Origin: Zanthoxylum bungeanum
Lineage: Eukaryota; Streptophyta; Magnoliopsida; Sapindales; Rutaceae
Direction: 5' to 3'
Assembly: GCA_019454045.1 (NCBI GenBank)
Contig: SKCR01038157.1
Location: forward strand, 558,001 to 622,000
Length of the DNA stretch: 64,000 nucleotides
Below the pieces are notes generated by a model. That model searched no databases. It was not told the origin of the DNA and saw only the letters and a list, made by a program, of their open reading frames with translations. Made by a program: the position numbers and the translations under genes. The stretch's first letter is position 1. Each line of letters opens with the position of its first letter. Positions 1-28,914 of the stretch are shown here, piece after piece.

Positions 1-474
1 TATTAATTAATATTTTGCTTTGAAAATGATTGATAATGACTTTTAATAATTACACTCCACACACTTCTGGATGGTTCATCAATTTCGGTCATGAAATCAT
101 CAGAATTTGAAAATATTTTCTCTTTAAAAGTTGTAGATCTTGGAGTCTTCTTTAATCTGGAACTTGAATTAGCCCAATCCGATATCTGAGTAAAAAGTTA
201 TGCCCAAAATACAACAGATGCGCAAAACTGGAATTTCCAAAACTGCACTTCGTCAAAAACGCCCTTTCAAGTTTCCAATCTCCAAAATTAATATATCAAG
301 TCCAATAATTGCCCTTATTTGATCCATATTTCATCCTAAATGATTTCATTAAGTCCCAATATTATTTTATCTGCAAAAAAACTAAAACACATCAAAACGT
401 TCATCAAACCCGAGAAACTAAACAAAATATTAAGAAAAAGGGGCGGTAAATATTGATATATTTTCCGCTCATCA
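1..474 (-). repeat. Athila-1 3' LTR, U3 part only (window edge)
   Basis: These bases repeat nearly exactly at 10,410-10,883. The LTR begins on the minus strand with TGATGAGCGG at 474, directly after the polypurine tract. The rest of the LTR lies left of the window. Confidence 0.93.
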
Positions 475-485
475 CCCCCCAAACC
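475..485 (-). other. Polypurine tract of Athila-1
   Basis: Minus-strand GGTTTGGGGGG sits immediately before the LTR start TGATGAG. This is the plus-strand primer site of the element, in the form typical of Athila elements. Confidence 0.85.
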
Positions 486-1809
486 TAACATTTTGCTAGT
501 CCTCGAGCAAAACAACAAAATAAAATACAAGAAACAATTAAATTAAACTAAGCCACTTTCGTAGGGATCACGGTTGCATTTAGCGTATGCAACAAGCCTT
601 TAAACCCCTAGGTGTCCCTAGTGGACGAGTTTTGTAGTCTCGTGAGGGTTTACAGCAATGACACCCACAAACATTTTACACAAAGTAAAAAGTAGTAAAA
701 CTAATGCACACAAAAGCAAAAAGACAATTGAAAAGAGAATAAAGAAGATAGTGACTAATCAGGTGAAACTTCTACTCCAAGTTACTAGTTGTTTTGTTTT
801 TTTCTAAATTACCGAATAAGTAAATTCTCCGATTATATTTACCATTCTCCATATACACAGCTAACATAATATTAAACAACTCATTTTTGCCCACAACAGT
901 CATAAGTGCAGTTGATAAGAGGGGTAATATTTTTGTCCTAAAGTTCTATCAGATTTCACACACTTTTTACAGTGATGGAATAATTTTTTTCGGATTTTTC
1001 TGATTTTTTTCTTTGATTTTCTGATTTTGACTTTTTTATTTATATACAATACCTTCCGTCTATGTAGCGAGCTTTGGGTCGGTGGCTCCCAAACCAGTTG
1101 GCTTTAGGGCACCAGGTGTTAAGACACCCCTACGGACTTAATTACCCAGACATTAGATATAAATATTTTTGCAACATCCTTGATCCATGTAGCGAGCTTT
1201 GGGCCAGTGACTCCCAGATCAGTTGGTTTTAGGGCACTGGGTGTTAAGACACCCTTACAGACTTAATAACTCGGATCTCAGACGTTTTTTTTTTTTTTTT
1301 TTTTTTTTTTACTCCATCACTTTTGTGAGATGCTTCCTCCAATTAAACTATAGCACTGAATATTACAAAATTTTCAATTTTAGCTCATGTCTGTATGTTA
1401 CTATGCATGTTGATAATACCTGTCAACTGAGCATATGAAGATCCATTTTAGTCAGTGTTAAGGAGAATTCACAAATTAAATAATTAAAAGGAAATAAAAA
1501 AAAATAACTTGTTTCGAAATAGGTTTGAGATAAGTCTCAGGAGTGGAAATTCCTTACTCGGCTATCTCTTACCAATTTCACCTTTTTAGTCAAAAAAAAC
1601 ATAAAAATGCAAAATATTTTGTAATTTATGAAAATGTTTCAATTTTTTTGTATTTTTCGAAAAAAAACTTAAAATAAAAAAACAACATACAACTAAAAAC
1701 AAGATATTAATCAGTTAATTCCCTCCCCCAAACCTAAATGAGACATTGTCCCCAATGTCTTAAATAGTAGAAGAAGAGTTTAGACGATAATACCTGGTTA
1801 ACTGAAATT
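486..1809 (-). other. Athila-1 noncoding 3' region with a two-copy direct repeat
   Basis: No coding ORF is supported here. It holds two diverged copies of a roughly 100-base unit (about 1,058-1,145 and 1,183-1,267) containing GTAGCGAGCTTTGGG and GGTGTTAAGACACCC, plus a 21-base T run near 1,287. The same arrangement occurs in Athila-2 at about 23,410-23,630, so it belongs to the element family. The self-complementary GGTGTTAAGACACC core could fold as a hairpin. Confidence 0.7.
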
Positions 1810-2472
1810 CTACAGGAATTTAAAGGTTAAGATCCAGATTAACCGACGTCTCTTACCACGATCGTCCCCAGACCAATTTATCTTTGAAATGATAGGGTCA
1901 ATTTGTGGTTCATATGCTATGAGTTGGTCAATTAGATCCGGAGCGGTTCTGGCAGTAAGTAATAGTTCTTTTAAAGGTTTTGATATGAACCCATTCCTCC
2001 GTGCATCATCAAGAAACACACAAAGAAAATCATAAAATCCATCAACATTGTACAGCCCAATTGGTTTCTGGTGTATGTTCAGGTTCGCCCAAGATAGTAC
2101 AATAAAAATTTCTTCCAATGTACCCAAGCCACCTGGCAAAGCAATGAAAGCATCAGCACGGTTAATCATTTCTACCAGTCGTTCAGACATACCTGGCACG
2201 ATCAGTTCCTCTCTGTTTGATGTTTCAATAAGATTTGCCTCTGCCAAGGGTTTTGGGATGATTCCCAAACACATGACTGCCTCCTTCCTGTACAGCCTTT
2301 GAAACGATCCCCATTAATCCAAGATTGCCTCCGCCATATATAAGTGCATATTTCTTGCAGCTAAGACTCGACCCAATTCCTGTGCTGCTTCTACGTATTG
2401 TGGCTTAGTACCAACACTACTACCGCAAAACACGCAGATGTTTTCAACTCGTCTTCTTGAAGTGGCTTCCAT
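1810..2472 (-). pseudogene. LOG: LOG-like cytokinin riboside 5'-monophosphate phosphoribohydrolase, frameshifted copy in Athila-1
   Basis: LOG enzymes release active cytokinin free base from its riboside monophosphate. The minus-strand ATG at 2,472 opens a frame with the family's CVFCGSS start. Relative to Athila-2, one base is missing near 2,340 and one is added near 2,270; the frame between them hits a TAA at 2,316-2,314. The downstream frame to 1,810 keeps the hallmark PGGLGTLEE loop and the C-terminal half. The copy has no introns, whereas plant LOG genes are normally interrupted, so capture from an mRNA is likely (inference). As it stands it cannot give a full-length enzyme; translation from the internal ATG at 2,274 would lack the N-terminal nucleotide-binding half. 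Confidence 0.85.
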
Positions 2473-2736: not shown

Positions 2737-3363
2737 CTATGCGTCAGGGACAAGCTTCCCATCCAATTTTCTTATAAATTGGCAAACAGGGTCTTTTTGA
2801 GTCAGATTCCCAAGACTTAACTGTTGTCTTTCTTTTAGAAATTGTGTATGTAATTTGCGAATGGCTATATGAACATATCCACTGGGATGCGTCTCAAGAG
2901 TCGAAGATAGATCATCTAAAGACTCCTTACTCAAGCCATCCCTAATGAATTTAATTTTGTCTTCGCGATTATCAGACACCATTCCTAAAGAACGACAACG
3001 AGTATTACAATTAAATCGTGCACATTTGAAACAAACACCCATTTGCTTAGCTCTACGTTTCTTTGCGTATGTGCTTCTTCCTAAACCAGGCAGATATGAA
3101 ATAAAAGAGTCAGAAGACTCACCTGCCAATCGGACTCGTGCTTCAATTACCCAACGAATATCATTAGGAACACCGTGAATTGTCAGTAACCTCATCCGTT
3201 CCAAACGAGCTTTGTAAACTTTCATCAGAGATTTTTGAGGGAGAGAAGGATAATTGCTTGCGAAGATTTGCGAGAGCTTCTTCCATTTTAAAATGACTAA
3301 TCCTGCAAAAATTAAACACACAAAAATAAAACACACCAAATCACAATATATACACAATTGCAT
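2737..3363 (-). CDS. Athila-1 post-integrase ORF, unknown function
   Basis: A 208-codon minus-strand ORF between integrase and LOG. I do not recognise it. The first ~25 residues look hydrophobic, but that DNA is a T-rich tract ending TTTTTGCAG near 3,303, which resembles an intron end. The real coding part may therefore begin at about residue 21 and be spliced. The middle holds a Cys cluster (C111, C114, C119, C123; CX2CX4CX3C) beside a basic KKRR run. It occupies the env-like position of Athila elements, but no convincing signal peptide or membrane anchor remains once the intron reading is allowed. Athila-2 keeps only traces of this region (about 25,050-25,300). Confidence 0.5.
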   Translation of the reverse strand: MQLCIYCDLVCFIFVCLIFAGLVILKWKKLSQIFASNYPSLPQKSLMKVYKARLERMRLLTIHGVPNDIRWVIEARVRLAGESSDSFISYLPGLGRSTYAKKRRAKQMGVCFKCARFNCNTRCRSLGMVSDNREDKIKFIRDGLSKESLDDLSSTLETHPSGYVHIAIRKLHTQFLKERQQLSLGNLTQKDPVCQFIRKLDGKLVPDA

Positions 3364-3398: not shown

Positions 3399-3623
3399 TC
3401 AGCTAGACGTGACTTTTCGAACGTTTAGGCTGGATCTGAAAGTGTGACACTTTTTTTGTCGCTCCAACGGTTCTCCCCAATAATGCTTAACCCGCTGACT
3501 GTTAACTTTGAATGTGTTGTTGGTATTGGGATCCAGTAACTCAACAGCTCCATGTGGTAAAACCTGAGTGATCACAAATGGACCTGACCACCTTGATTTC
3601 AACTTTCCAGGGAAAAGTTTCAA
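3399..3623 (-). pseudogene. Athila-1 integrase C-terminal tail
   Basis: A 74-codon frame reading SRWSGPFVI and ending after a [13 protein letters not shown] motif, as in the GPY/F-like end of gypsy integrases. It continues the integrase in another frame, so a frameshift separates it from the catalytic core. No chromodomain is visible, as expected for Athila. Confidence 0.75.
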
Positions 3624-4381
3624 CTCGAGTTGTACAACAACACCTGTTGCTTTGGTTCCAACTGTCTGTGCACTATTTTTCGGTCATGCCATCTCTTGGT
3701 CTTTTCTTTGTACAGTCTGGCATTCTCATAAGCCTGTAGGCGAAATTTCTCCAATTCATTGAGTTGGTGAAGTCTTTTCTCTCCTGCAGCTTGTGGATCA
3801 AAATTCAACTTCTTCAGTGCCCAGTACGCCTTGTGTTCAAGCTCAACTGGCAGATGGCATGCTTTCCCAAACACCAATCGATATGGTGACATACCAATGG
3901 GTGTCTTGTAAGCTGTACGGTAGGCCCATAATGCATCATCCAATTTTGCAGACCAGTCCCTCCTTGTTGATCCAACGGTTCTTTCCAAGATTCTTTTGAT
4001 TTCTCTGTTTGAAACTTCAACCTGTCCATTTGACTGTGGATGGTAGGCTGTGGCAACCTTGTGAGTAACTCCGTATTTGGATAGAAGTGCATCAAAGTAT
4101 TTGTTGCAGAAATGAGAGCCACCATCGCTGATGATTGCTCGAGGTGTTCCAAACCGAGTGAAAATGTTCTTTTTCAGGAATTTGATCACCACTTTTGAAT
4201 CATTGGATGGCAGTGCAATTGCTTCAACCCATTTGGAGACGTAGTCTACAGCAACCAAGATGTACAGGTTTCCGAATGATGGAACAAAGGGTCCCATGAA
4301 ATCAATACCCCACACATCAAATATCTCAACTTCCAGAATGTTTTGCAATGGTCCTTCGTTTCTTCTCGAAATATTCCCCAT
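3620..4381 (-). pseudogene. Athila-1 integrase catalytic core
   Basis: Inserts retroelement cDNA into chromosomes. This 253-codon frame contains the DDE residues in context: GIDFMGP, then SDGGSHFCN, then the [14 protein letters not shown] block, followed by [19 protein letters not shown] typical of plant gypsy integrases. The zinc-binding N-terminus lies upstream in another frame (about 4,570-4,380, beginning [16 protein letters not shown]), so a frameshift near 4,380 breaks the protein. Confidence 0.88.
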
Positions 4382-5283
4382 TCTCTGGCACCTGTCACAT
4401 TGAAAAGCAAAAGATAAGCATCTTTAAAAAGTGTAGGCCAGAACAAACCTGATTGAAGGACTTTTGCTGCAGTTTTGTTTCCGCTGAAGTGTCCGCCATA
4501 TGGTGATGAATGACAGTGCTGCAAAACACTGTTGACCTCCTCCTGTGGAACACACCGTCTCAATAATTGATCAGCACACCGTTTGAACAGGTACGGCTCA
4601 TCCAGATATAGTGCTTGCTTGACTTCTTTGAAGAATTTCTTCCGTTGTTGAGTTGTCCATTCCAACGGCCATTTTCCTGACACAATGTAGTTGACATAGT
4701 CAGCATACCAAGGGGTATCTTGTTGTTTCATAGCAAACAGCTGTTCATCTGGAAAAGTTTCTTTAATTGACAGTTCTTTGTCAGCTGTTTCTCCATTCTC
4801 GAGCCTCGATAAGTGATCTGCCACCTGGTTTTCTGTTCCTTTCCTGTCTCGAATCTCCACGTCAAATTCTTGCAGAAGAAGTATCCAACGGATAAATCTG
4901 GGTTTGGCATCTTTCTTTGCGATCAAATATTTGATTGCTGAATGATCTGTGTAGACTACCACCTTGGGATCCAACAGATAAGAACGGAATTTGTCAAAAG
5001 CGAACACAACTGCAAGCAACTCCTTTTCAGTGGTTGTGTAGTTGAGTTGAGCTTCATTCAAAGTTCTGCTGGAGTAGTAAATGGTGTGGAAAATCTTTGC
5101 TTTGCGTTTTCCCAAAACTGCACCTACAGCAAAATCACTAGCATCACACATTACTTCAAATGGAAGGGTCCAGTCTGGTGTTACAATGATGGGGGCAGAA
5201 AAAAGCTTCTGTTTCAAGATCTCGAAGGCTTCCTGGCATTCTTGGTGAAGTTGAAAGGCACATCCTTTTCCAGAAGGTTGCAA
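4246..5283 (-). pseudogene. Athila-1 RNase H and integrase zinc-domain region
   Basis: A 345-codon frame that starts within the RT-RNase H connection. RNase H features include [17 protein letters not shown], the [13 protein letters not shown] block and the [10 protein letters not shown] block, ending at the [10 protein letters not shown] motif. It continues into the integrase N-terminal region with paired His residues. The reading then leaves the integrase frame. It degrades the RNA strand of the RNA-DNA hybrid during reverse transcription. Confidence 0.88.
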
Positions 5284-6570
5284 AGAGGTTTTGCAATTTT
5301 GGAAAAGTCTTTGATAAATCTCCTGTAAAAACCTGCATGTCCAAGAAAACTCCGAATGCCTTTGACAGATGTTGGAGGAGGTAGTTTTTCAATTGTCTCG
5401 ATCTTTGCTTTGTCTACCTCAATTCCCTTTTGTGAGATCCGGTGTCCAAGAACAATGCCTTCATGTACCATAAAGTGGCATTTCTCCAGTTGAGTACCAA
5501 GTTCGTGTCTTCACACCTTTGTAATACTGTTCAAGATTTTGCAAACAATGATCAAATGAATCTCCAAATACAGAAAAGTCATCCATGAAAACCTCCATAC
5601 TCTGCTCCAACATATCTGAGAAGATGGCCATCATGCAACGCTGAAAAATGTGCAGGGGCATTACATAGTCCAAATGGCATCCTGCGGAAAGCAAAAGTAC
5701 CATAAGGACATGTAAATGTGGTTTTCTCCTGATCCTCTGGTGCAATGGCAATCTGATTGTATCCTGAATATCCATCCAAAAAGCAATAGAACTCATGTCC
5801 CGCCAATGTCTAACATCTGGTCAATGAATGGCAGCGGAAAATGGTCCTTTCTGGTGGCTTTGTTCAGCTTACGATAGTCCATGCATACTCTCCATCCAGT
5901 CACCGTTTTGTGTTGGAATCAACTCGTTCTTTTCATTTGTGACAACAGTAATTCCTCCTTTCTTTGGTACACACTGCATAGGACTTACCCAAGTGCTGTC
6001 TGAGATGGGGTAAATGATGCCAGCATCTAACCATTTGATGATTTCTTTCTTCACGACTTCCTTCATGATTGGATTGAGTCTCCGTTGATGCTCCACTGTG
6101 GGTTTGTACTCATCGTTCATCAAGATTTTGTGCATGCAAAATGATGGACTAATGCCTCGAATGTCTGCTATAGTCCAACCAATGGCTTTCTTGTGCTCTC
6201 GCAATACTCTCAACAACTTTTCTTCCTGTTCCAATGTTAGCGACGAAGAAATTATAACAGGTAATTCAGAAGAGTTTCCAAGAAATGCATACCTGAGATG
6301 GCTCGGGAGTAACTTCAGCTCCAGCTGCGGTGGTTCTTCAATCGAGGGTTTGATCCGGTCTGTCTTTGGAAGTTCCAAACTTTCAATTGGTTGTGTCACC
6401 TTGAAAGAACGGCTTGTCAAGATAGTTGATACATTCCATAATTTCAGCATCAAGCTCACTGTCAGACATGTTGGTGATGCAAGCTTCAAGTTTATCTGTG
6501 GGAATTGTATCAGTATCTTGAATGATACTATCAACAACATCAATTCTGAAACATTCTTCTTCCTTTTCAT
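5214..6570 (-). pseudogene. Athila-1 reverse transcriptase, frameshifted
   Basis: RT domain of the gypsy type, recognisable from LNPIMKEVVKKEIIKWLDAG (about 6,110) through FLDGYSGYNQIAIAPEDQ (about 5,780), the catalytic FMDD (5,589-5,578) and the [17 protein letters not shown] block near 5,300. The peptides match the Athila lineage. At least three frame changes (around 5,870-5,800, 5,700-5,650 and 5,500-5,470) prevent one continuous product. Confidence 0.88.
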
Positions 6571-7314
6571 CGCTCGGGAATTTCATGGCTTTGAAAACAT
6601 TGAAGTAACTTCTTGGTCCTGAACTTTCATGGTTAGTTCTCCTTTTTGTACGTCAATCACAGTTCGACCTGTTGCCAAAAATGGTCTCCCAAGAATGATT
6701 GGAACATCTTTGTCTTCTTCCATGTCAAGGATAATGAAATCAGCTGGGAGAATGAGTTTGTCAACTTTCACCAACACATCTTCAACCACTCCTCTTGGAA
6801 ATGCGAGCGTCCGATCGGCAAGTTGCAAAGAAACAGAGGTAGGCATTGCTTCTCCAATCTGTAGTTTCCTGTAAATAGAAAAAGGCATCAAGTTAACACT
6901 AGCACCTAAATCACATAAAGCCTTACCGATGTAATGTTCTCCAATGGTGCACGGGACTGTGAAACTGCCAGGATCTTTCAACTTCGGGGGAAGTTTCCTC
7001 TGAATGATTGCGCTGCATTCTCTGTCAATGCACTGTCTCATGTCTCCCAATCTCGTTTTCGTGAAAGAATGTCTTTCATGAATTTGACATAGCTGGGCAT
7101 TTGTTCCAAGGCTTCTGCAAATGGGATGTTGATGTGCAACTTTTGAACACCTCCAGGAATCGAGCGAACTGCTTATCCAGTTTGTTTTTCTGAAGACGCT
7201 GAGGAAAAGGTGGAGGTGGAGTGATCTGTTCTTTTTCCTTTGCTTCTTTTTCCTCCATATGTTGCTGTCTCTGTTTCTTTTGGTCTTCTTTGGCTGTTGC
7301 CTTGATTCCAACAT
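6383..7314 (-). pseudogene. Athila-1 aspartic protease and linker to RT
   Basis: The 7,314-6,583 frame holds a retropepsin-like domain: LCDLGASVNLMPFSIYRKL (DLGA in place of DTGA, usual in plant Athila proteases) and the later IILGRPFLATG flap-side block. After a frame change the linker (6,586-6,383) ends in an acidic peptide, EACITNMSDSELDAEIMECI. A related peptide ends the Athila-2 ORF. Confidence 0.82.
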
Positions 7315-7339: not shown

Positions 7340-8660
7340 CAAGGTGATGGCTTGACATTGCTCCTTCCCTCGGTCCTTGGATTTGTTCTGTGTTGCTGGG
7401 AAGATTTCCTGGCGGTCTGTAACTCTGAGCATTGGCCAGTTGTCCAATTTGATTTCTCAATGCTTTGATGGAAGCTGATTGGTTTTGAACATAGCTTCAT
7501 ATTTTTTAACTGAGCTAGGACTTCTGCCATTACTGGTTCTTTTTCATGCTCCTAGCCTTTGTTCTGTTGTTGGAATCCAGGTGGTGGAAAGTTCTGCTGT
7601 TGGAATCCAGGTGGTGGATTATTTCTTTGTCCCAGATTGTTGCTCCATGAAAATTGGGATGATTCCTCCACCCTGGGTTGTAGGTGTTGGAATATGGATT
7701 GTTTCCCTGTCTGTTGAAATTGTTGACATAATTCACCGTTTCTTCAGGTTGAGTTGGCTCTGGTACTCCTCCATATGTTGAACTTGTTGCTCCAATATTG
7801 CTTTGAGTGTTGAGAGTCTCCATGAATTTGCATATCTGGTCCAGTTTGGCACTAACTGCTGTGTTGGCTCCAACTTCATAAATTCCTGCAATCTTTGAAT
7901 CAAGCTCCTTTCTGTTGGCCACAAGGAATTGTTATTGGCCATCTCTTCGATTAGGTCCCAGGCTTGATCTTCTCCTTTTGACATCAAAGCTCCTCCAGCA
8001 GCAGCATCAATAGTGGTTCTCATCAATCCAGAAAGTCCATTATAGAAAGTTTGGACTTGAAGCCATTTTGGAATCTCATGGTGAGGACATTTCCGGATTA
8101 GATCTTTGTATCTTTCCCAAGCTTCGTACAGGATTCTGAATCTGCTGCAAAGGATGTGATGTCATTCCTCAACTTTGCAGTTCTGGCTGGTGGAAAGTAT
8201 TTTGCAAGGAATTGGTGGCCAGAGTGTTCCATGTTGTGATGGAACCAGCTGATAGTGAATGTAGCCAAGCCTTTGCTCTGTCTTTCAAAGAGTATGGAAA
8301 AAACCCGCAATCTCATTGCTTCTTCAGCTCCTCGGTTGTATTGAAAGTGCCGCAAACTTCCAGGAAGTTGCTGATGTGGGCGTTAGGATCTTCAGTTGCA
8401 TTCCCCCCCAAATTGTACTGACTGTTGAATCATCTGAATGCAAGTTTTGATATCTCCTGCATTTGCTGGTAAGGGAGGAGGAAGTACAATACAGGAAGTG
8501 AGGCCATCTACCACCGGAATGGTTCTGTCTCGAATGGGAATTGGTGGTGCAACCTCCAAAGGTTCAGGTTCCATGTTAACAATTGCTTCTTGGCCTTCTC
8601 GCCTTTCCCTTCTCAACTGTCTGATGGTTCTTTCAATCTCAGGGTCAGCGGATGGATTTC
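7340..8660 (-). pseudogene. Athila-1 gag, degenerate
   Basis: Gag pieces in several frames: DPEIERTIRQLRRERR near 8,640, PIPIRDR near 8,540, an FLAKYFPPARTAKLRNDITSF block near 8,200, GLMRTTIDAAAGGALMSKGE near 8,000, and a Gln/Asn-rich end near 7,700-7,530 with a duplicated 27-base unit encoding HHLDSN. An intact start codon and frame are missing. Confidence 0.8.
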
Positions 8661-8793: not shown

Positions 8794-8811
8794 TCCCCGG
8801 CAACGGCGCCA
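8794..8811 (-). other. Athila-1 primer binding site, tRNA-Asp
   Basis: Minus-strand TGGCGCCGTTGCCGGGGA is fully complementary to the 3' end of plant tRNA-Asp(GUC). It lies six bases inside the 5' LTR, which ends at 8,818. Confidence 0.93.
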
Positions 8812-8817
8812 AAAACT

Positions 8818-10883
8818 TGACCGGCGTAAACACACACGTATAACGCAAGCGCACGTATCGTTCAAGTAGTATAAAAAGTATCGATCCCACGAGGACTTAA
8901 TATCTAAACTATTAATTTTATGAGGTCAAATGATTACTAATATCTAACAAGTTTTGATTGATTGATTTGAAATGGTGACGATTCTAAATTTAAAAGCAAG
9001 TAAATAAAATTGTTCGAAAGTAGGTTTTAAGAAAATTCAATATTAAAAACTATCTAGGGTTGTGATTTCTTTCAATATCATTTTAAAGATGAAGTGGTTA
9101 TCTTAAAGTTGGGTAATATATTGATTTATTAACCTGGAACACTAAATTATGTGTAAGCCTCTGTCGATGGTCAGACACAAATATCCAGTTTAACCCAATT
9201 GAACCATATGTCTATGTCAACCAAATTATCTGGATTCATTAAGTTTAAGTTCCAATTATGGCTACCCCCGCCCGACAGGTATATTTCTATCCTGTAAGGA
9301 AATCTATTAAAGGGTTATCTATCCTCAAGGAAGATCGTGGCTATTAAGTCTAAGGCTGAAACCTAAAATCCCTATGTCTAGTTCATTTTAGATTTATCAG
9401 ATCAATTTTATTAATGGCCAGTTAATGAAAAAGCATTAAGTTTAAGACTCAATAAATAAATCTTTATATTACCCATGCTATAATCTAACCCTTATAAAAT
9501 TGTGATATTGGATTTCATCACAACCCCAGATAATAATTTAGTTACCAACACATAACTGGGGCTAGTAAAAGCTTGAAAATAAAAGACATAAGTAAAAATG
9601 CGGTAAAGTAAATACTGAAAAGTAAAGTACAATAAAATAAAATGCTAAGGTAAAAGGAATTACTTTTACTACTACTAATTTAGATATCTCCCATAATATA
9701 CTATATAAACTTGTGATAACATTACCAACCAGCCATATAGGCGGTAACCTGATTAAGTCAAATTAAGTCCAACCGGCCATTAAGGCGGTAAAAAGATTTG
9801 TCAATGAACCTGCCATATAGGCGGTAAGAAAGTTTAATTACCAACCGACCAATCTGGCGGTATCCTTGATTAGTCAGGTTAAAACCAGATTAAAATGAAT
9901 TACCACCGACCAATTTAGCGGTATCCTTTTTAAGTCAATATTTAAAATAGTGAATATATTATATTTAAGGGAGATTAATCTAAATAGCAATAGTAAAGGA
10001 ATTACCTTTCACCCTAGAGGGGAAGTTACCTCCTCATTACTGAAAAGTAAAAACTGAAAAATTAAGAAAGAAAAGTTACTGTGCGTAAAAGTAAATTGCG
10101 GAAAGAAAACTGAAAAGTAAAGAAAAGAAAGTGTGAAACTGAAAATTAATTACTGAAAACTAAAAATAAACAAACTAGATACAATCTTCTTATTTATTCA
10201 TTAAGAATTTCAAAGAAGAAAGTATGAATTTTACAAATGAAATGGCTTGGTATTTATAGGCAAAATTTTGCCACCATCAAATCATCCACCAAATAATTCT
10301 TATTAATTGCTCCACTAATTGCTTATCTAATTGCTCCACCAAATCCATTATTGCTCCACTAATTTCTTATCTTGTTTGGTGGTGATTTGATAATTTTTAT
10401 TAATTATTTATTAATTAATATTTTGCTTTGAAAATGATTGATAATGACTTTTAATAATTACACTCCACACACTTCTGGATGGTTCATCAATTTAGGTCAT
10501 GAAATCATCAGAATTTGAAAATATTTTCTCTTTCAAAGTTGTAGATCTTGGAGTCTTCTTTAATCTGGAACTTGAATTAGCCCAATCCGATATCTGAGTA
10601 AAAAGTTATGCCCAAAATACAACAGATGCGCAAAACTGGAATTTCCAAAACTGCACTTCGTCAAAAACGCCCTTTCAAGTTTCCAATCTCCAAAATTAAT
10701 ATATCAAGTCCAATAATTGCCCTTATTTGATCCATATTTCATTCCTAAATGATTTCATTAAGTCCCAATATTATTTTATCTGCAAAATAAACTAAAACAC
10801 ATCAAAACGTTCATCAAACCCGAGAAACTAACAAAATATTAAGTAAAAGGGGCGGTAAATATTGATATATTTTCCGCTCATCA
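8818..10883 (-). repeat. Athila-1 5' LTR (2,066 bp)
   Basis: Bounded by TG (10,883, minus strand) and CA (8,818), placed by the primer site on one side and the polypurine-adjacent copy on the other. It contains a TATA box (minus GCCTATAAATACC near 10,247-10,259), giving U3 about 0.6 kb, and a variable array of a GCCATATAGGCGGTAA-like unit (about 9,725-9,930). It shares ends with the Athila-2 LTRs, so the two elements are subfamilies of one family. Confidence 0.9.
9725..9930. repeat. VNTR in Athila-1 LTR, unit about 40 bases
   Basis: Five diverged copies containing GCCATATAGGCGGTAA or GACCAATYTGGCGGTA. The Athila-2 LTRs hold three copies (about 21,776-21,875) and four copies (about 27,580-27,715), so copy number varies between LTRs. 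Confidence 0.75.
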
Positions 10884-12290
10884 CGTACCATGCTAACTCA
10901 TAGTTTTAAAGCCGCCATAGATACTCGTTGGGTTAGAGAAGAAGGAAGGCTCGTCAAAAGACCGTTAGCGAACATGAGTGAGTCCGATAATGAGGGTTAT
11001 CACATGGATCAGCTAGAGACTAATCTCACTAAGATTACCAAGCAGTTGCAAGCTTTGACCGCCGCTGTGGCCAATATGGCAGTGCCCTGTGCAGGAAGGG
11101 CATAAAGCTCTGATAATGTCAGGCGTGAAGAGCCTCCGAACATGATGAGTGATGAGATCCATGTTTTTGATGATGACATGGCTGAGTATGCCGCGGGAAG
11201 GGTAGTCGGGTCTCAGGCCGAGTTACAGAAACTCAGGGATCAGGTAGAGTCAGTTACCCGTAAGATGAGGGGTAAGCATGATGACCTACTACACTACGAG
11301 GCGATGGCTTTCGAGGAACAGATGCCTTCCCAGTTCAAGATGCCTGACATAGCCAAGTTCAACGGGAACATGGATCTGAGGGTGCATATCCGACAGTATG
11401 TTTCTGTGATTAGTTCAGTGGGCCTGTCGAAGCGTCAGGTTAAGAAGATGTTCGGGATGTCGCTCTAGGGGGCACCCATGGTGTGGTATCATGGCCTTGA
11501 GAGGAAGGTCAATGATGATTGGAGGGAATTGGCGGAGGCCTTTCTGAATCAGTATGTCACGGATTTGGAGATCGACTTGTCGCTCCGCAACTTGGAGAAT
11601 ACCAAGCTGAAGCCGGATGAGAGCTTCAAGGATTATGTAGATCGTTGGAGAAGCCATCTTTTGAAAATGCAGACTCGGCCCTCGGAGAAGGACCAGATCA
11701 CGATGATCATCAAAGGTACTAAGCCTTTTATTTACGGCAAGCTGAGGATGATGAACTCTATGATTGGCGACTTTCGACAGTTGAGGGAGACTGTTATGGA
11801 CATTGAGGAGGAATAAGCTGAGAATAGGAAGTTCTATGGCTAGAATAGAAGGACTATTGTGGGGCCTTCTGAGACCAAGCCCGCTACTGCTGAGGTCACT
11901 GCCGTCATAAATAGGCGATTCTCCAACCTTGGTAAACCTCTGTCAAATGTGTTTGAGAAGTTGAAATGACAAAGACTCCTGAATCCTTTAGAACCTATAC
12001 CAATTCCGGACCTTGTGCCACACTATTTTAACTTAAACCAATATTGTCACTTCCACCAGTAGAAAGGCCACGAAACAGACAAATGCGCCCGCCTCAGGCA
12101 TGAGTTCCAAAACCTCATTGACGCTCATAAGATACCCGACCCAGAAAAAGAACAACCCAACACACACAGAAATACCCTACCTAACTACCACTCTGTTCCA
12201 CCACCCACCTACATGATCAACTCGGGCCTACCCGAAAGCTTTGTCCTCCAAACTCTCAACCGCCAAGCTTCTTGCATGGGGATGTGGGGA
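10884..12290 (+). pseudogene. Tat/Ogre-like gag with six in-frame stops
   Basis: A single uninterrupted plus-strand frame reads as Tat-lineage gag: PSQFKMPDIAKFNGNMD, the MVWYHGLE block, KLKPDESFKDYVDRWR, and a zinc-knuckle-like CHFHQxKGHETDKCARLRHE near 12,050. It is broken only by stops at 11,103, 11,466, 11,814, 11,841, 11,967 and 12,060. Several fit C-to-T change (for example HQ-stop-KGHE, where family members have Gln). There are no frameshifts in this stretch. The 5' part is separated by the Athila-1 insertion at 10,884. Pol is absent: the frame runs directly into 3' UTR-like sequence after about 12,290, so an internal deletion removed it. Confidence 0.82.
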
Positions 12291-13524
12291 TGGCAGCAGT
12301 GAAGAACCATAGGCCAAGGTAGAAGGCAATGTTGTAGACAGTGAAGATGTTTTCCCTAGTTTATTTAATTACAATCCTGCATTTTTTTTAATAAAGACAT
12401 TGATTTTGCCTACATGTTCGAGTCTTTTCCTCAATAGTTAAGCATGAGTCCGATGATGAAATTGTTTGCTTTAGGGTGAAACCTTAGAAACGATAAGTGC
12501 GAGATGTGCTCTCATCTGATGTTTTGAGTAGTTGATCTCGGTTAGACTCGGGAGCACTTAATTATAGGATCTTAGCGGTGAAAGCCTGAGTAGTCGGCAA
12601 GATGACTAGTTGAAGAGAGTACGGATTAATGAATGATCGTTCGCTTAGATGTCCATCATGGCTTACTTGTGTTACGATATGTGGTATGGTTGGAAACAAA
12701 AGAAAAGTCTATAAAGAAGAAAATATAAACCACCAATAACCGATAAGCGTGAAGCTACCCATAGGCGAGTATTAGGACCACCATGAGGAGAAATGCTACC
12801 TTAAAGGGTAAGTGTGTAAAAAAAAGGAAGATGAAAAAGAGACGAAAGAAAAGGAAAAGAAAATCATATCACATTGAGTACGGATAAGTAATTACAGAGC
12901 ATGATCAAGACATCTAAGTTAGTTTGACCCCTCGATCTCATTCTTTGAAACAAAATCATTGAGTTGGCTTACCCACGGATCAAACTGTAAAAGAACCTTA
13001 TCAAACACACACTTTGAGTCTGGTTCAGATCATTTATTCAAACAGTTGAATTTGAGTTACATCAAGTACTTTGAAGGTTCTCTGGTTTCGACAATAGGCA
13101 TCCTTTGAGGGCAATAATATGTATAACTATTGGGACTATTTCGTAAAAGGCAATATAGTATGTTGATATGGAACGTCACATCACATGATCTACTTTGACC
13201 TAGTGCAAGTAGAAAATAGCAGAAAGATAAACCAAGTGTGGGGGCGACCAGTCTACCACCTCGCGAATAAGGGACGTAATGTAATCTTGAGTCATGGGAT
13301 CAAAGAAAACTGAGCAATCACCAGAAGAGAACTGACAAAATGAATCTGTAAGCATGCCCAGGGGGCGACCAAAGACATTAGTAGGCGAAGGGCGCCAGAG
13401 AACACATGGAAGACCTAACACAGCGGAATAGGAAACACATCCATGCATACATGCATACACGTCACATGCATGCAATCTTTGTCTTATTTTTTCGCAGGTT
13501 TTGAAGAAAAGCGGCAAAAACAAA
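12291..13524 (+). other. Tat-like element 3' untranslated region
   Basis: No gene is supported. The sequence follows the truncated gag and leads into the 25-bp array and the LTR in the same element. It is purine-rich around 12,820-12,870. Confidence 0.5.
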
Positions 13525-14070
13525 CAATTCGGGAATAAGACCCACAACTCAAATCGGGAACAAGACCCGGAACTTTATTCGGGAACAAGATCCAAAACTC
13601 AATTCGGGAACAAGACCTGCAACTCTATTCGGGAACAAGACCTACAACTCAATTCGGGAACAAGACCCACAACTCAAATCGGGAACAAGACCCGCAACTT
13701 TATTCAGGAACAAGACCTACAACTCAATTCGGGAACAAGACCCACAACTCAAATCGGGAACAAGACCCGCAATTTTATTCGGGAACAAGACCCACAACTC
13801 AAATCGGAAACAAGACCCACAACTCAGTTCAGGAACAAGACCCGCAACTCAATTCGGGAACAAGACCCACAACTCAAATCGGGAACAAGACCCACAAGAT
13901 CCTCAGCTCAATCCGGGAACAAGACCCTCAGCTCAATCCGGGAACAAGACCCTCAGCTCAATTCGGGAACAATACCCTCAGCTCAATTCGGGAAAAGACC
14001 CACAATTCAAATTGGGAACAAGACCCACAACTCAGTTCGGGAACAAAATCCACTCGGTGGTTCGGGAACA
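13525..14070 (+). repeat. 25-bp tandem array, about 20 copies, in the Tat-like 3' UTR
   Basis: Consensus unit near TTCGGGAACAAGACCCACAACTCAA. Because 25 is not a multiple of 3, the frame rotates and the array reads as a 209-codon ORF with a 25-residue period; that ORF is an artefact. Variable arrays just upstream of the 3' LTR are known in Tat-lineage elements and can seed satellites. Confidence 0.9.
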
Positions 14071-14346
14071 ATACCCAGGGGTCACAGCGCCTCGCCATCA
14101 ATCTCAACTCAAGTAACAGCTCAAAAATGAGCCATCTCTCATCAATAACGGTTTGGGAATGAACCATCTTTCATCAAGTAACGGTTCGGAATGAACCAGT
14201 GGTCAAGCACCTCGTCACTATCAACTCGGTTTAAAGCGTCTCAGAACAACCGATAAGTTCGGCAACAGCTCGCGAGTCAGGTAAGTAAAAAATGCATGCA
14301 TGACATTGATAGAATTGTCACTGTTACACACTGCACAAGTCTCATC

Positions 14347-17951: not shown

Positions 17952-20256
17952 CACTACAAGAAATTACAGTTTTAGGGACGGAATTTAGCGACGGAATATT
18001 CCGTTTCAAAATTTAACGACCAAATTGAAACGGATAATGAAATTAGGGACGAAATTTAGCGACAAAAAAAGTTTCATCTACAAATTAGAGACGGAAATAA
18101 ACTTTCGTCGCTAATTAGAAATAAATTATTATTCCGTCGCTAATTTCATCTAGAAACAAAATTTTTCCGTCGTTATTCCATCGCTAATTAGAAACGGAAT
18201 TATTATTTCGTCGCTAAATAGAAACATAATCTTTATTCCGTCGCTAATTTTAAATTTTCATTTTCATTTTAATTTAATTTCTAATTTCCAAAACTATTGG
18301 TAATTAATAACGGAATTTTTCCGTCGCTAATTAGAAACAGAATTAAAAATCCGTCTCTAAATAGATACATAATCTTTATTCCGTCGCTACTTTTAAATTT
18401 TCATTTTTATTTTAATTTTAATTGGTAATTAGAAACTTGATTTTTTTGTCGCTAATTAGAAACGGAAGTAAAATTCCGTCGCTAATTAGAAACGAAATTA
18501 AAAATCCGTCGCTAAATAGATACGAAATCTTTATTCCGTCGCTACTTTTAAATTTTCATTTTTATTTTAATTTTATTAGAAACAAAATTTTTCCGTCGCT
18601 AATTAGAAACGAAAGTAAAATTCCGTTGCTAATTAGAAACGAAATTAAAAATCTGTCGCTAAATAGATACGAAATCTTTATTTCGTCGCTACTTTTAAAT
18701 TTTCATTTTTAATTTAATTTAATTTCTAATTTCCAAAACTATTGGTAATTAGAAACATAATTTTTCCGTCGCTAATTAGAAACGTAAGTAAAATTCTGTC
18801 GCTAATTAGAAACGTAATTAAAAATCTGTCTCTAAATAGATACAAAATCTTTATTTCATCGCTACTTTTAAATTTTCATTTTAATTTTAATTGGTAAATA
18901 GAAACGGAATTTTTCCGCCGCTAATTAGAAACGAAAGTAAAATTCCGTCGCTAATTAGAAACAGAAATAAAAATCCGTAGCTAATTTTAAAATTTTAAAA
19001 CCCCACAAAAATTAAATCCTTTCGGCGCATTTTTTTTTTAAAAAAATAGAGACGGATTTACCGTCGCTAATTAGAAACGGAATGAAAATTCTGTAGCTAA
19101 TTAGAAACGGAATTGAAATTCCGTAGCTAATTTTAAAATTTTCAATCCCCCAAAAAATGCAATCCTTTCGGTGCCACTTTTTTTTTAGAAAAAATAAATA
19201 GAGACGAATTTTTCGTCGCTAATTAGAAACAGAATTAAAATTCCGTAGCTAATTTTTAAAATTTCCAATCCCTCCAAAATTTTCAAAAATTTACCGCCTT
19301 ACGAAAATTTCAAATGTCTATAAAATTTACAAATTTTCCTGCTTCTCATATCTTTTCCTCTATATATACACCACAATCTTTTTAACTCTCAACTTCAATA
19401 CATCATCCAAAATTTTCCTACTCAATTCCATATACCATCAAATTTTTTCATAACTCAACTCTCATTATCAATCTCTCATTTTTCTTATCTCCACTTTTAT
19501 AATTTCCTAAAAAACAAAAACTAATATATATTTTTTTTGGGTTTAAAGTGGAGTAAATGGATGGTGGTGTGTCGAAGCTTGCGGTGGACATTACGTTATC
19601 TTGTGGAATTGAAGATTTATATATAACATTAACAAAGTCAATTTTTTAAAATTTTCTACCATTCAAAAATTTTAAAATTTTCCCTTATATAAAATTTAAA
19701 AATTCACTCTCTCTACAATTTATAAATTTCTCACATCTATATAATTATAAAATTTCACACCCCTCTAAAATTTTTTCCTTTCTAAGATTTTAAAAGTTCC
19801 ATGCATCTTTAAAATTTTAAAATTTTAAAATTTCACGCCTCTCTAAAATTTTAAAATTTTCGTTTTTAATTTTTTTTTAAAATATATAGCTACGGAAATT
19901 CCGTCTCTAATTAGCAACATAATCTTTATTCCGTCACTAAATAGTGACAAAAAATTATGTGTCTATTTAGAGACGGAAATACTTTTGTCGTTAAATAGAA
20001 ACAGAATTTTCCGTCACTATTTAGAGACAGAATAATTTATGTCGCTCATTAGAGACGGAATTTCCGTCACTATATAGAGACGGAATAAAATTTCGTCGTT
20101 AATTTTAGCGACAGATGAAATATTTCCGTCGCTATTTTTTTTACGACCAACAAAATAGAGACGAAATTTTTTCGTCGCTATTCCATTGCTAGTGGTCAGT
20201 TAGCTACAGATTAGCTACAGATTTTTCCATCGCTATTTGACAATTTTCTTGTGGTG
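17952..20256. mobile_element. Non-autonomous CACTA (En/Spm-like) transposon, 2,305 bp
   Basis: Left end CACTACAAGAAATTACAG; right end, on the other strand, CACCACAAGAAAATTG; flanked by the 3-bp duplication AAA. Both sub-terminal regions are packed with direct and inverted copies of a TTAGCGACGGAA / TTCCGTCGCTAA motif, the likely transposase-binding arrays. No transposase ORF is present, so mobility would depend on an element elsewhere. The middle (about 19,340-19,640) is AT-rich without recognisable coding sequence. Confidence 0.9.
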
Positions 20257-20924
20257 AAACACAAAGTTCGGTTAGTAGTCAAATGATTCCAATAGAAAAA
20301 GGAAATCGACTTTGATCAAATTTTTTAACCAGATGTACAAATGATTTCTATCCGAGTTATCCTATGATTGTTTGCTAATTTGAACATAGAGCTTGAATAG
20401 ATGGATGTTAAGACATCATTTCTTCATGATGATCTATATGAAGAAATCTATATGGATCAGCCAAAATACTTCAAGGTTTCAGGAAAATAGAACCTTATTT
20501 GCAAGCTGAATAAGAGCTTGTACAGCCTCAAACAAGCACCAATACACTGGTACAAGAAGTTTTACTCGTTTATGGTGAGTCAAGGCTATAAAATAACTGC
20601 ACCAGACCATTGTGCTTACATTCAAAGGTTTCCGAATGAAATTTCGTTTTTTTTTATATGTGGATGACATGTTGATCGTTGGACAAGATGCAACGAAGAT
20701 CAGCCGCCTGAAAAATGAACTCTCTAAGTCTTTTGACATGAAAGACTTATGACCAACTCACAAATTTTGGGAATGTAAATAGTTTGAGACATACAGAACA
20801 AATGATTGTGGCTTTCACAAAAGAATTATATTGAACGGGTGATCATAAGATTCGATATACAAAATGCCAAAGCTGTAAGCATTCCACTAGCACATCACTT
20901 CAAACTAAGCAAGAGTTCGTACCC
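20257..20924 (+). pseudogene. copia RT, central piece
   Basis: Resumes with KHKVRLVVK after the CACTA element, then MDVKTSFLHDDLYEEIYMDQ (about 20,402), LICKLNKSLYSLKQAP and a decayed YVDDMLIVGQD region (about 20,655), followed by an FKLSKSSYP-like stretch at the Athila-2 boundary. It carries several stops and frameshifts. Confidence 0.85.
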
Positions 20925-22851
20925 TGGCCGGTGTAAACAAACACGTATAACGCAAGCGTACGTATCGTTCAAGTAGTATAAAAATATCGATCTCACGAGG
21001 ACTTAATTCCTACTGTTGTTATTAATTATTGATACTATTTATTTACATGTATCTAAATATATGGAGAAGGGAATTGATTGTTTTTAGTTGGTTGAATGTG
21101 GTTTTGCAAAATAAAATAAAAACAGACTCAAAAGAAAATACTAAGGAAAATAAAAGAAAAGACTCAAGGATCTAGGGTCTTGACTCCACACAATATTATT
21201 ATAAAGATGAATTTATTCTCTTATCTATGTGTAATAAATCAATTTGCTAACCTGGAACACGAAAATATGCAAAAGCCTCTGTCGATGGTCAGACGCAAAT
21301 ACCATGTATAACCCAATTGAACCATATTTCTATGTCAACCAAATTACCTGGATTCATTAAGATTAAGTTCCAATTATGGCTACCCCGCCCGACAGGTATA
21401 TGTCTACCCTGTAAGGAAATCTATTAAGGATTATCTATCCTCAAGAAGATCGCGGACTATTGAATCTAAGGCTGAAACCTAAAATCCCTATGTCTAGTTC
21501 ATTTTAAGTTTATCAAATCAATCTTATTGGTGATCAGCCAACAAGAAGCATTAAGCTTAAGACTCAATAAACAAACTAAAGAATTACCCATAAAAAGAAA
21601 ATCAATTATTAAGTGTGGATATTGTGTTTCATCATTTCCCTAGAATAAAAATAAAATGCTGGGGGTTAGAGGATTCACATTTAATATTTCTTATCTAGGA
21701 ATCTCACTTATTATAATATATAAATTATTTTATGTTCTACTTTCTCAGGAATTAATAATATTAAACATTTAAAACCAGCCATATAGGCAGTAATCCATTT
21801 AGTCCAACTACACCAGCCATATAGGCGGTAATTATTAAAGTAATTTATATTTAACCCGACCATATAGGCGGTAATAAAGTCTGATATTAATTAATCCGGT
21901 TAAATTATAATTTATAAATTATAATTAAGTGAGATTTACCTAGATAATTATATTAAAGGTTTCACCTTTTACCCCAGCGGAAATTTAACTACAAAACATA
22001 AAGTAAATAAATAAAAAGATGTAATAAAAACTAAAAATAAAAATACATAATTTTATTATTACAAAATTAGATGATTCCTATGAAATCAGGGAAAAAATCT
22101 CAAGAAAAGCACACCAAATGAAGTGAAGAAGGCCTGAATTATAGGCATTTTCGGCAACTGGCGTCGCAACGCGTAGGGTCTTGGCGTCGCGACGCCAGCA
22201 CGCGGCTTTGGTCCACGTGGGTTGACCACGCATGTTCTGTCAGCAGAATCTGGTGATGACACGTGTCACGCGGTGAAGGTGGTGCAATAAGAGGATGACA
22301 CGTGGCACACAGTGATTGGCTGATCTTTCGGTCAAATGAAAAGTTGACACGTGGCACGCGCTTAGGATCGGTCAAATGAGAGGTCGACACGTGGCAACAT
22401 GTGATTTGTCCAATATTCGATCTAATGAGAGATTGACACGTGGCACGCGCTTGATTTGGTCCAATGAGATTTTGACACGTGGCAGCCGGCGCATTTTAGC
22501 AGATCTTCTGTGATGATGACACGTGGCACAACGCACGTTAGCAAGGTTGGTGCACGTTAGCAAGTCCAATTTCTCAGATTCTGACACGTGTCCCTCGGTG
22601 CACGTTAGCATGGCCGGCTCACTTTAGGCGTCGCGACGCTGAAGGTCTTGGCGTCGCGACGCGGAAAAATTACAAATATGCCTTTTTTTCATTTTTTCTC
22701 TATTTTGTCTCCAAATTACTTCCAATGTTTTCCCAACTTTATTTATCTGCAAAATAACACAAAACACATCAAAACGTTCACAAAACTCGAGAAACTATAC
22801 AAAATATTAGGTTAGATGAGTGGGAAATAGTGATATAAATATCACTCATCA
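20925..22851 (-). repeat. Athila-2 3' LTR
   Basis: Runs from the left TACCC duplication to TGATGAGTGAT (minus strand) next to the polypurine tract. The terminal dinucleotide at 20,925 has diverged slightly (TGGCCGG against TGACCGG in the other LTR). It retains two GCGTCGCGACGC palindromes at each side of the G-box array, which the 5' LTR has partly lost. Confidence 0.92.
22255..22595 (-). promoter_or_regulatory. G-box array in Athila-2 3' LTR (eight copies)
   Basis: Eight ACACGTG motifs, mostly GACACGTGGCA, spaced about 40-50 bases, lie in U3 upstream of a TATA-like site near 22,138. ACACGTGGC is the ABRE/G-box core bound by plant bZIP and bHLH factors. A further CCACGTGG lies near 22,213. 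Confidence 0.8.
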
Positions 22852-22863
22852 CACCCCCAAACC
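22852..22863 (-). other. Polypurine tract of Athila-2
   Basis: Minus-strand GGTTTGGGGGTG precedes the LTR start TGATGAG, equivalent to 475-485 in Athila-1. Confidence 0.8.
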
Positions 22864-24130
22864 TAACATTTTGCTAGTCCTCGAGCAAAACACAAAATAA
22901 AATAACATAATAAAATTTAACTAAGCCACTTTCGTAGGGGTCACGGTTGCATTTAGCATATGCAACAAGCCTTTAAACCCCTAGGTGTCCCTAGTGGACG
23001 AGTTGTAGTCTCGTGAGAGTTTACAGCAATGATACCCACAAACATTTTACAAAAGTAAAAAGAAAGTAAAACTAATGCACACAAAAGCAAAAAGACAAGC
23101 GAAAAGAGAATAAAGAAGTTAGTGACTAATCAGATGAAACTTCCACTTCAAGTTAATAATTGTTTTGTTTCTTTCTAAATTATCGAATAAGTAAATTCTC
23201 CGATTATTTTTACCATTCTCTATATACACAGCCAACAAAATATTAAACAACTCATTTTTGCCTACAACAGTCACAAGTGTAGTTGATATGAGAGTAATAT
23301 TTTTGTCCTAAAATTCTATCAGATTTCACATCTTTTTGTAGCAATGAAATAATTTTTCTCATTTTTCTGATTTTTTTTTTCTATTTTTTATTTATATACA
23401 ATATCTTCCATCTATGTAACGAGCTTTGGGCCGGTGGCTCCCAAACCAGTTGGCTTTAGGGCACCAGGTGTTAAGACACCCTTACGGACTTAATTACTCA
23501 GACTTCAGATAAATATATTTTTTTGCAGCATCTTCGATCCATGTAACGAGCTTTGGGCCAGTGACTCCCAAACCATTTGGTTTTAGGGCACTAGGTGTTA
23601 AAACACCCTTACTGACTTAATAACTCGGATCTCAGATTTTTTTTTTTGTTTACTCCATCACTTTTTGATATGTTTCCTCCAATTAAATTAGAGCACTGAA
23701 TATTACAAACTTTTCAATTACAGCTCATGTCCGTATGTTTCCATGTATGTTGATAATACCTATCAACTGAGCATATGAAGATCCATTTTAGTCAATTTTA
23801 TGGAGAATTTACAAATTAAATAATTTAAAAGGAAATAAACAAAAATTAACTTGTTTCGAAATAGGTTTGAGATACGTCTCAGGAGTGGAAACTCATTACT
23901 CAGCTATCTCTTACCAATTTCACATTTTTAGTCAAAATAAAAACACAAAAACGCAAAATATTTTTGTAATTTTTGGACTAAAAATAAAAACAACACACAA
24001 ACTAAAAACAAGGTACTGATCAACTAATTCCCTCCCTCAAAGCTAAATGAGACATTGTCCCCAATGTCTTAAACAGTAGAAGAAGAATTTAGAAGATAAT
24101 ACCTGGTTAGCTGAAATTCTACACGAAAAG
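22864..24130 (-). other. Athila-2 noncoding 3' region
   Basis: Closely similar to 486-1,809 of Athila-1, including the two-copy repeat with GGTGTTAAGACACC (about 23,410-23,500 and 23,540-23,630). No gene is supported. Confidence 0.75.
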
Positions 24131-24784
24131 TTAAAGGTTAAGATCCAGATTAACACGACGCTTCTTACCACGATCGTCCTCGGACCAATTTATCTTTGAA
24201 ATGATAGGGTCAACTTGTGGTTCATAGGCTAAGAGTTGGTCAATTAGATCCGGAGCAGTTCTGGCAGTATAGAGGAGTTCTTTCATAGGTTTTGACACGA
24301 ACCCATTTCTCCGGGCATCATCAAGAAACACACAAAGAAAATCATAAAATCCATCAACGTTGTACAGTCCAAACGGTTTCTGGTGTATGTTTAGGTTCGC
24401 CCAAGATAGCACTATAAAAATTTCATCCAATTTGCCCAAGCCACCTGGCAAAGCGATAAAAGCATCAGTACGGTTAATCATTTCCACTAGTCGCTCGGAC
24501 ATACCTGGCACAATAAGTTCTTCTCCGTTTGATGATCCAATAAGATTTGCCTCTGCCAAGGGTTTTGAGATGATTCCCAAAAAGTGACTGCCTCCTTCCT
24601 GTACGGTCTTTGAAACGATCCCCATTAGTCCAAGATTGCCTCCGCCATATACTAAGTGCATATTCCTTACAGCTAAGACTCGACCCAACTTCTGTGCTGC
24701 TTCTATGTATTGTGGTTTAACACCAACACTACTATCACAAAACTCACAAATGTTCTCAACTCGTCTTCTCGAAGTGACTTCCAT
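24131..24784 (-). CDS. LOG: LOG-like cytokinin riboside 5'-monophosphate phosphoribohydrolase, full-length copy in Athila-2
   Basis: A 217-codon intronless ORF, the usual size of plant LOG proteins (about 210-230). LOG enzymes cut the ribose phosphate from cytokinin nucleotides in the cytosol to give active hormone. Seen: YGGGNLGLMG at residues 46-55, Arg in the SERLVEM block (residues 96-102), DAFIALPGG at 107-115, and a C-terminal NVDGFYD block. Odd points: the hallmark PGGxGTxEE reads PGGLGKLDE (113-121), replacing the Thr and the first catalytic-loop Glu, and the N-terminal CGSS reads CDSS (16-19). The fold is probably kept but activity is doubtful. Base composition matches the rest of the element. 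The same gene in Athila-1 shows that capture preceded their divergence. Confidence 0.85.
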   Translation of the reverse strand: MEVTSRRRVENICEFCDSSVGVKPQYIEAAQKLGRVLAVRNMHLVYGGGNLGLMGIVSKTVQEGGSHFLGIISKPLAEANLIGSSNGEELIVPGMSERLVEMINRTDAFIALPGGLGKLDEIFIVLSWANLNIHQKPFGLYNVDGFYDFLCVFLDDARRNGFVSKPMKELLYTARTAPDLIDQLLAYEPQVDPIISKINWSEDDRGKKRRVNLDLNL

Positions 24785-24835
24785 TTTTTTATGTATTTAT
24801 TTCTCAAATCAGGATGCCTTCCAAAGTACAATGAC

Positions 24836-28858: not shown

Positions 28859-28914
28859 TCAGTGCTGGGCTCCGAAGGTTGATTTGTTTCCCTTCAGCAT
28901 AAGTCATGAATGGT

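Follow-up and report, generated by a model that had tools for sequence, protein, structure and literature searches.

We analyzed a 64-kb window (the whole stretch of DNA considered here) of the Zanthoxylum bungeanum genome, a 3.96-Gb assembly in 51,709 contigs. The minus strand of the window holds two LTR retrotransposons, each with an intronless LONELY GUY (LOG) gene placed 3′ of pol (element 1) or 3′ of the former pol site (element 2). The features of the two elements are as follows.

8818-10883, minus strand: 5′ LTR, element 1
8794-8811, minus strand: primer-binding site, element 1, identical to the element 2 site
6583-7314, minus strand: protease region, element 1; matches weak, below the Pfam cut-off
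5461-6570, minus strand: reverse transcriptase (RT) region, element 1; frames broken, a single RT match below the Pfam cut-off
4246-5283, minus strand: RNase H and integrase H2C2, element 1 (Pfam; H2C2 27.3 bits)
3620-4381, minus strand: integrase core (rve), element 1 (Pfam, 67.1 bits)
2737-3363, minus strand: Viral_NABP / Carla_C4 zinc-finger ORF, element 1, 208 codons
2539-2560, minus strand: candidate 3′ splice site before LOG copy 1, with a pyrimidine tract and its CAG at 2540-2542
1810-2472, minus strand: LOG gene copy 1, element 1; read in pieces, as one-base indels disrupt the frame
1721-1761, minus strand: directly 3′ of LOG copy 1, an 8-bp stem-loop with a second polypurine-like tract behind it
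476-485, minus strand: polypurine tract, element 1
1-474, minus strand: 3′ LTR, element 1; runs past the window edge
26725-28638, minus strand: 5′ LTR, element 2
26701-26718, minus strand: primer-binding site, element 2
24131-24784, minus strand: LOG gene copy 2, element 2; open 217-codon frame with basic patch and LxLxL end
22854-22863, minus strand: polypurine tract, element 2
20925-22851, minus strand: 3′ LTR, element 2
20920-20924 and 28639-28643, no strand: target-site duplication GGGTA, element 2; perfect, 5 bp

Read 5′ to 3′, element 1 runs from the protease region through RT, RNase H, integrase, the NABP-like ORF, and LOG to ≈1.3 kb of noncoding DNA and the polypurine tract, and its two LTRs share 98.7% identity across the 475 bases of the 3′ LTR that the window contains. 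Its protease and RT scores fall below the Pfam cut-offs, probably because the frames are broken, and the ORF at 5869-6570 in the RT region gave no Pfam RT match. The internal part of element 2 (≈3.9 kb) has no pol that we could find among its ORFs. The initial annotation had placed both LOG genes between pol and the polypurine tract; both do lie upstream of the 3′ polypurine tract and that of element 1 follows pol, but for element 2 the pol side was not found.

Athila elements use a tRNA-Asp primer, and the same 18-base primer-binding site follows both 5′ LTRs, a site that we take to be complementary to tRNA-Asp. Element 1 has the gypsy pol order RT-RNase H-integrase (its RT match being weak), and this order recurs at other loci of the genome. 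A second, archaeal-type RNase H is described as marking the Tat lineage (PMC6317226); none was named in the scanned ORFs of element 1, whose frames are broken and which were covered by a general domain scan. The Athila ORF-1 (PF03078), reported for 16% of Athila elements (PMC6317226) and not required for membership, was absent from the Pfam matches of the scanned window ORFs. Like Athila elements with an env-like 3′ ORF, those described here have a primer-binding site, long LTRs, a polypurine tract, and a 3′ accessory ORF after pol, but the accessory genes are an NABP-like gene and LOG instead of the env-like ORF.

Other observations concern the surroundings of these features. An Rfam snoR71 match at 8073-8175 on the plus strand (42.4 bits, cut-off 40) falls inside element 1 on the opposite strand, where gag is expected, and is perhaps due to chance or derived from a repeat. 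Plus-strand ORFs at 10890-11816, gag-like by eye, adjoin the 5′ end of element 1, which may therefore be nested in another element; one of them, 11142-11468, has no Pfam match. Tandem arrays occupy 13475-14077 (25-base unit), 28911-29491 (47-base unit), and 18173-19254 (copies spaced ≈150 and 300 bases). Element 2 has at 25641-26420 (minus strand) a 259-codon acidic ORF with a zinc-knuckle-like start (CNCDGNHPSNQC), which has no Pfam match above the cut-off and is perhaps a gag remnant.

Identity and origin of the element LOG

LOG genes had been proposed at 1810-2472 and 24131-24784, and we confirmed both sets of coordinates on the minus strand. Both genes pass PF03641 (Lysine_decarbox; 109.6 bits each, Pfam cut-off 27) and TIGR00730 (cut-off 96.35; copy 2 scores 150.3 bits, the copy-1 piece 103.3 bits); with the NCBIfam LOG equivalog, a model built for prokaryote annotation, copy 2 scores 99 bits, below the cut-off of 300. 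Copy 2 matches the Arabidopsis LOG 2a33 with E = 8e-54. An AlphaFold2 model of copy 2 computed from 31 sequences (pLDDT 80.4) likewise finds 2a33 as its best PDB match (E = 6.6e-21, TMt 0.94), followed by other type-I LOGs of plants and bacteria. LOG phosphoribohydrolases have a PGGxGTxxE motif and a catalytic arginine. The residues R98, G114, G115, G117, T118, and E121 are near- or fully invariant among 31 homologues; the motif reads PGGLGTLEE in copy 1, and in copy 2 a lysine replaces the family threonine of PGGxGT. By family, the window genes are LOGs, and from this membership we infer a putative role in hormone (cytokinin) activation. With the canonical plant LOG1, LOG3, and LOG8 they have in common the type-I fold, the PGGxGTxxE motif, and ≈50% identity; they differ in being intronless in the window, in forming a sister clade, and in carrying a basic patch and a terminal LxLxL.

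A protein search returned 985 homologues, and many of the best 120, which we listed, have 217 residues and ≈50% identity. These include named members from Populus, Paulownia, and Reevesia; Xanthoceras and Orobanche supply others. We built a tree of 68 proteins, which left out Orobanche, the host's own LOG, and other canonical LOG types. In it the sampled element-type LOGs form one clade (100/98), the 21 canonical plant LOGs, of types LOG1/3 and LOG8, are its sister (99/98), and these two groups stand together against 16 bacterial LOGs (96/97). The bacterial set had been retrieved with element-type LOGs, 16 of its 80 loci were used, and one row (L030) holds a stop that was entered as X. A quicker tree of 86 rows that included Orobanche and the copy-1 piece again gave one clade (SH-aLRT 91). 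LOG had been proposed as cargo common to one element family, and the single clade bears this out. The element LOG is therefore no recent duplicate of a plant LOG in the sample, nor, on this tree, is it bacterial; a bacterial origin is not favored, given the 96/97 grouping with plant LOGs against the 16 bacterial ones.

The source plants of the element-type homologues are rosids and asterids, so the capture is probably old; a single old capture is possible, as is later movement between plants. The element-type clade can include plant gene models annotated as LOGL10, as in Populus, and such models may distort counts of the LOG family.

Element copies and constraint on the LOG

We searched the genome with PF03641 and scored the best 150 of 47,331 loose candidates; all 150 exceeded the cut-off, 147 of them without an internal stop. 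A second search, with a canonical LOG as query, scored the best 150 of 58,360 candidates: all were single-block matches 49-52% identical to the query, 142 lacked an internal stop, and none looked canonical, so that exons of the host's canonical LOG were absent from these 150. Since the two tables have ten places in common, the genome holds at least 290 distinct LOG places, a few of which may be allelic contigs (the LOG sequence is identical in some); the figures of 47,331 and 58,360 are candidate counts and not copy numbers. Random genome stretches contained no LOG in 35 kb, a sample too small for an estimate of density. The initial annotation would have been refuted had LOG been missing from every other copy of the family; these places show that it is not.

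To place the genes in context, we read by eye 20 stretches of up to 10 kb around high-scoring LOG copies. Three have protease, RT, RNase H, integrase, and NABP matches with the LOG; seven have NABP and a short C-terminal integrase match (50-57% identity) with no RT or RNase H match; five have the LOG alone, as in element 2, one of these with a 41% protease match 5 kb off on the other strand; and the remaining five are truncated or not classifiable. Where pol and NABP occur together and share an orientation, pol comes first, followed by NABP and then LOG.

These searches bear on a further explanation, namely that the genes form a separate host LOG subfamily captured independently by elements in each species. 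The element context was seen in copies from this genome, and the matches from other species are known here as proteins, which leaves room for such a history. Set against it are the 150 single-block matches at 49-52% identity with nothing canonical-looking among them, the Reevesia matches, whose locus tags look like those of nine or more chromosomes, and the LOG reported in Citrus and Populus Gypsy consensuses (PMC9289625); we consider it improbable.

The two window copies had been said to align and to share flanks, and both flanks do align between the elements at 87-88% (1670-2666 to 23979-24983 at 87%; 354-1627 to 22731-23972 at 88%). The idea that the host's own LOG gene was inserted twice, independently, is refuted by these shared flanks and disfavored by the tree (built without the host LOG), in which the copies fall outside the canonical plant LOGs and group with each other and with LOGs from other species; element-type LOGs also recur at hundreds of genome places. 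We found no evidence in support of such insertions and regard them as highly implausible.

The history of the LOG within the elements appears more involved. A DNA tree of 25 LOG copies, in which 3 of 22 inner branches are well supported, requires nine changes of element class, against a mean of 8.3 when classes are shuffled. LOG copies thus do not sort by element architecture, which suggests transfer of the LOG module between element types; the earlier proposal of one capture followed by spread is too simple. Between the two elements, the 1.1-kb noncoding stretch 3′ of the LOG (window 480-1627) is 92% identical and thus more conserved than the leader before the LOG (77%) or the synonymous sites of the LOG itself (dS 0.28). 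The mismatch of tree and class and the 92% stretch are compatible with element types having swapped their 3′ ends; alternatively, the noncoding DNA may be under constraint. In the same stretch (minus strand), a unit of roughly 85 bases occurs twice, in imperfect copies.

The stem of the loop at 1721-1761 is a perfect 8 bp, and the pattern of the second polypurine-like tract was found in 22 of 24 genome copies. Upstream of the LOG, the CAG of the candidate acceptor is kept in 25 of 26 aligned copies, with TAG in the remaining one, and by eye the N-terminal extensions of two homologues (P0008 and P0010) resemble a similar leader. The conserved acceptor-like CAG and the leader-like extensions make a spliced LOG message plausible.

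The companion ORF at 2737-3363 matches Viral_NABP (29.1 bits, cut-off 23) and Carla_C4 (27.1 bits, cut-off 20.9; PF05515 and PF01623) and is akin to the carlavirus nucleic-acid-binding protein. Homologues of ≈182 residues occur in Populus, Acer, Xanthoceras, Rhamnella, and Orobanche; relative to them, the N terminus of the element 1 ORF is out of frame. One homologue (P0229) is a gene model fused to a protease-like stretch. The model of the NABP-like protein (pLDDT 60.2) was too poor for a fold search, scans of IMG/VR for relatives of LOG or NABP gave none that was confirmed, and literature searches on the NABP family names returned unrelated titles only. As a plant-virus-like gene retained by an LTR element, this ORF may match the LOG in novelty.

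The ratio dN/dS had been proposed as a check on retained function. Between the window copies, it is 0.21 (bootstrap 0.12-0.36), well below 1, with 16, 11, and 37 differences at the three codon positions. Among 24 copies from the genome, in which one pair with an identical LOG was merged, the median is 0.23 over 275 of 276 pairs (one dropped for a dS of 0.02 or less; stop codons skipped, indels kept). By class, the medians are 0.19 where the LOG stands alone (15 pairs, window copy 2 included) and 0.21 where pol is deleted (21 pairs), and the pol-bearing class gives 0.16 from one pair, two of its three pairs having been dropped as likely indels. The amino acids of the LOG are constrained in each sampled element class.

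Because copies chosen by score favor conserved LOGs, we chose a second set through noncoding DNA. With 221 bases 3′ of the LOG as query, the best 40 of 1,210 candidates were scored and 12 loci fetched, one of which was element 1 and another cut by a contig end, leaving ten usable. Nine of these ten contain LOG. For the window copies and these nine, the pooled pN/pS is 0.33 (of the 55 pairs, 16 whose pS does not exceed 0.03 enter the pooled value and not the median), and differences by codon position number 578, 414, and 1025, a third-position excess counted over pairs that have branches in common and are not independent. In the near-identical subset, where changes are few, pN/pS is not clearly low.

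One of the nine LOGs is free of indels and stops, and the other eight have broken frames. Among loci L116-L124 and element 1, near-identical copies differ by many one-base indels and few substitutions. Two copies almost without substitutions (pS 0, pN 0.002) differ in having four indels and none relative to copy 2, and indel sites mostly differ between near-identical copies, although two or three may be common. This pattern points, in part at least, to uncorrected assembly errors. That copy 1 has a broken frame is hence no proof of a dead gene, and frameshifts in this assembly may be unreliable.

Eight broken frames in nine are what favors neutral hitch-hiking, in which the LOG was captured once and copied along unused. 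We nevertheless think this unlikely, in view of the dN/dS values of 0.16-0.23 by class and overall (from score-selected copies), the pN/pS of 0.33 in copies not selected by LOG, the excess of 1025 third-position differences over 578 and 414, and the conservation of tail and motif across species. The LOG belongs to an amplified element family as a genuine accessory gene and is under constraint. Bs1 of maize is reportedly a low-copy LTR element with host sequence in the form of a captured gene fragment; the element LOG, in contrast, is a whole gene constrained over many copies. On balance, we favor the view that these are Athila-type Ty3/gypsy elements with an old, retained LOG as a 3′ accessory gene.

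The C-terminal tail

Among the 101 element-type homologues that have the C-terminal region, 78 end in LxLxL; the other 19 of the 120 listed were set aside because the region is missing. Leucines occupy positions -5, -3, and -1 in all 78, as the selection by pattern dictates, while -4 and -2 vary; the tail usually also has L, I, or V at -7 and K or R at -11, -10, and -8. Within the last 12 residues, LxLxL occurs in 0 of 120 canonical LOGs versus 79 of 120 of the element type (fragments included), and a basic patch in 1 of 120 versus 98 of 120. One canonical LOG in 120 fits a looser end pattern, and by eye the canonical rows with the looser end or the basic patch are odd gene models. Short motifs can arise by chance; when the last 12 residues of the element-type LOGs were shuffled, LxLxL appeared on average 14.9 times, with a maximum of 24 in 300 shuffles.

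Copy 2 retains both the basic patch and the terminal LxLxL, and 14 of 24 copies picked by score from the genome reach LxLxL in frame. Residues 203-217 of the copy 2 model have pLDDT under 50, and from this low confidence the tail is probably disordered and exposed. The basal branches P0031, P0068, and P0088 have the basic patch and no LxLxL, ending instead in KRRRLD or KKRRLA, and one subclade of element-type LOGs ends in DIDLNR. EAR motifs of the LxLxL type are described as binding TOPLESS/TPL and TPR corepressors (PMC10942257; PMC13252061). The resemblance suggests that the tail of the element LOG is an EAR-type, TOPLESS-binding motif and the protein a putative corepressor recruiter.

Possible roles of the element LOG

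The accessory gene probably encodes an active LOG whose tail binds corepressors. In the mechanism that we propose, a spliced subgenomic RNA would serve for translation of the LOG, in the manner of an env-like gene, and the protein would retain the type-I LOG fold and its reaction, the conversion of a cytokinin nucleotide to free cytokinin. The basic patch would carry it into the nucleus, where the terminal LxLxL may bind TOPLESS-type corepressors. The element could gain from local cytokinin, in dividing, meristematic cells leading to the germ line, from TOPLESS recruitment, or from both, and the benefit would often have to act on the carrier element itself for the LOG to be kept in pol-less derivatives. 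We offer as a tentative reading that a captured hormone enzyme has turned nuclear effector, which would make cytokinin and recruit TOPLESS where the element transposes and which has been kept across rosids and asterids and in pol-less derivatives.

The protein might instead be mainly a nuclear adaptor, with the LOG fold as a scaffold or a sensor of cytokinin nucleotides, the EAR tail recruiting TOPLESS to silence host genes, and free cytokinin beside the point. Such a role draws on the derived tail, which is kept in lineages only ≈50% identical in the body of the protein, its leucines constant while -4 and -2 vary. A mere scaffold, however, would have no need of R98, G114, G115, G117, T118, and E121, which are near-invariant in the 31 homologues, and we hold this role to be rather doubtful.

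The initial annotation knew of no LOG cargo in an Athila family, a statement that, as worded, published work does not support. A YgdH (LOG) domain is reported for the Gypsy consensuses of two Citrus species, C. sinensis and C. clementina, and, when no filter was applied, of Populus trichocarpa (Alvarado-Marchena et al. 2022, PMC9289625, which cites Steinbauerova et al. 2011); the passages on the domain give no Gypsy lineage. LOG cargo as such was therefore already known. The published consensuses resemble our elements in having a LOG-family domain inside plant Gypsy LTR retrotransposons, but those passages amount to two sentences of a domain screen and do not describe a clade, tail, selection, architecture, or companion ORF. 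The same report describes an AlkB (m6A demethylase) ORF in Phalaenopsis Gypsy elements, likewise a host-type enzyme as a Gypsy accessory gene; it differs in enzyme and lineage, and activity was demonstrated there in vitro (PMC9289625).

Our search on Athila with LONELY GUY returned PMC9289625 alone, further searches turned up nothing more on LOG in elements, and among titles on LONELY GUY with EAR motif and TOPLESS, none concerned such a LOG. Within the literature searched, there is no description of the clade, the tail, or the NABP companion; what is new lies in the tail, the companion ORF, and the keeping of LOG in pol-less elements.

Extra genes in plant LTR elements are often regarded as passengers, and a constrained LOG with this tail suggests a useful tool of the element. 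Here a hormone-enzyme gene stands at hundreds of sites, outlasts the loss of pol, and carries a tail that resembles a motif known for recruiting corepressors. Were the gene active, a transposon would here be steering the hormone or chromatin state of its host.
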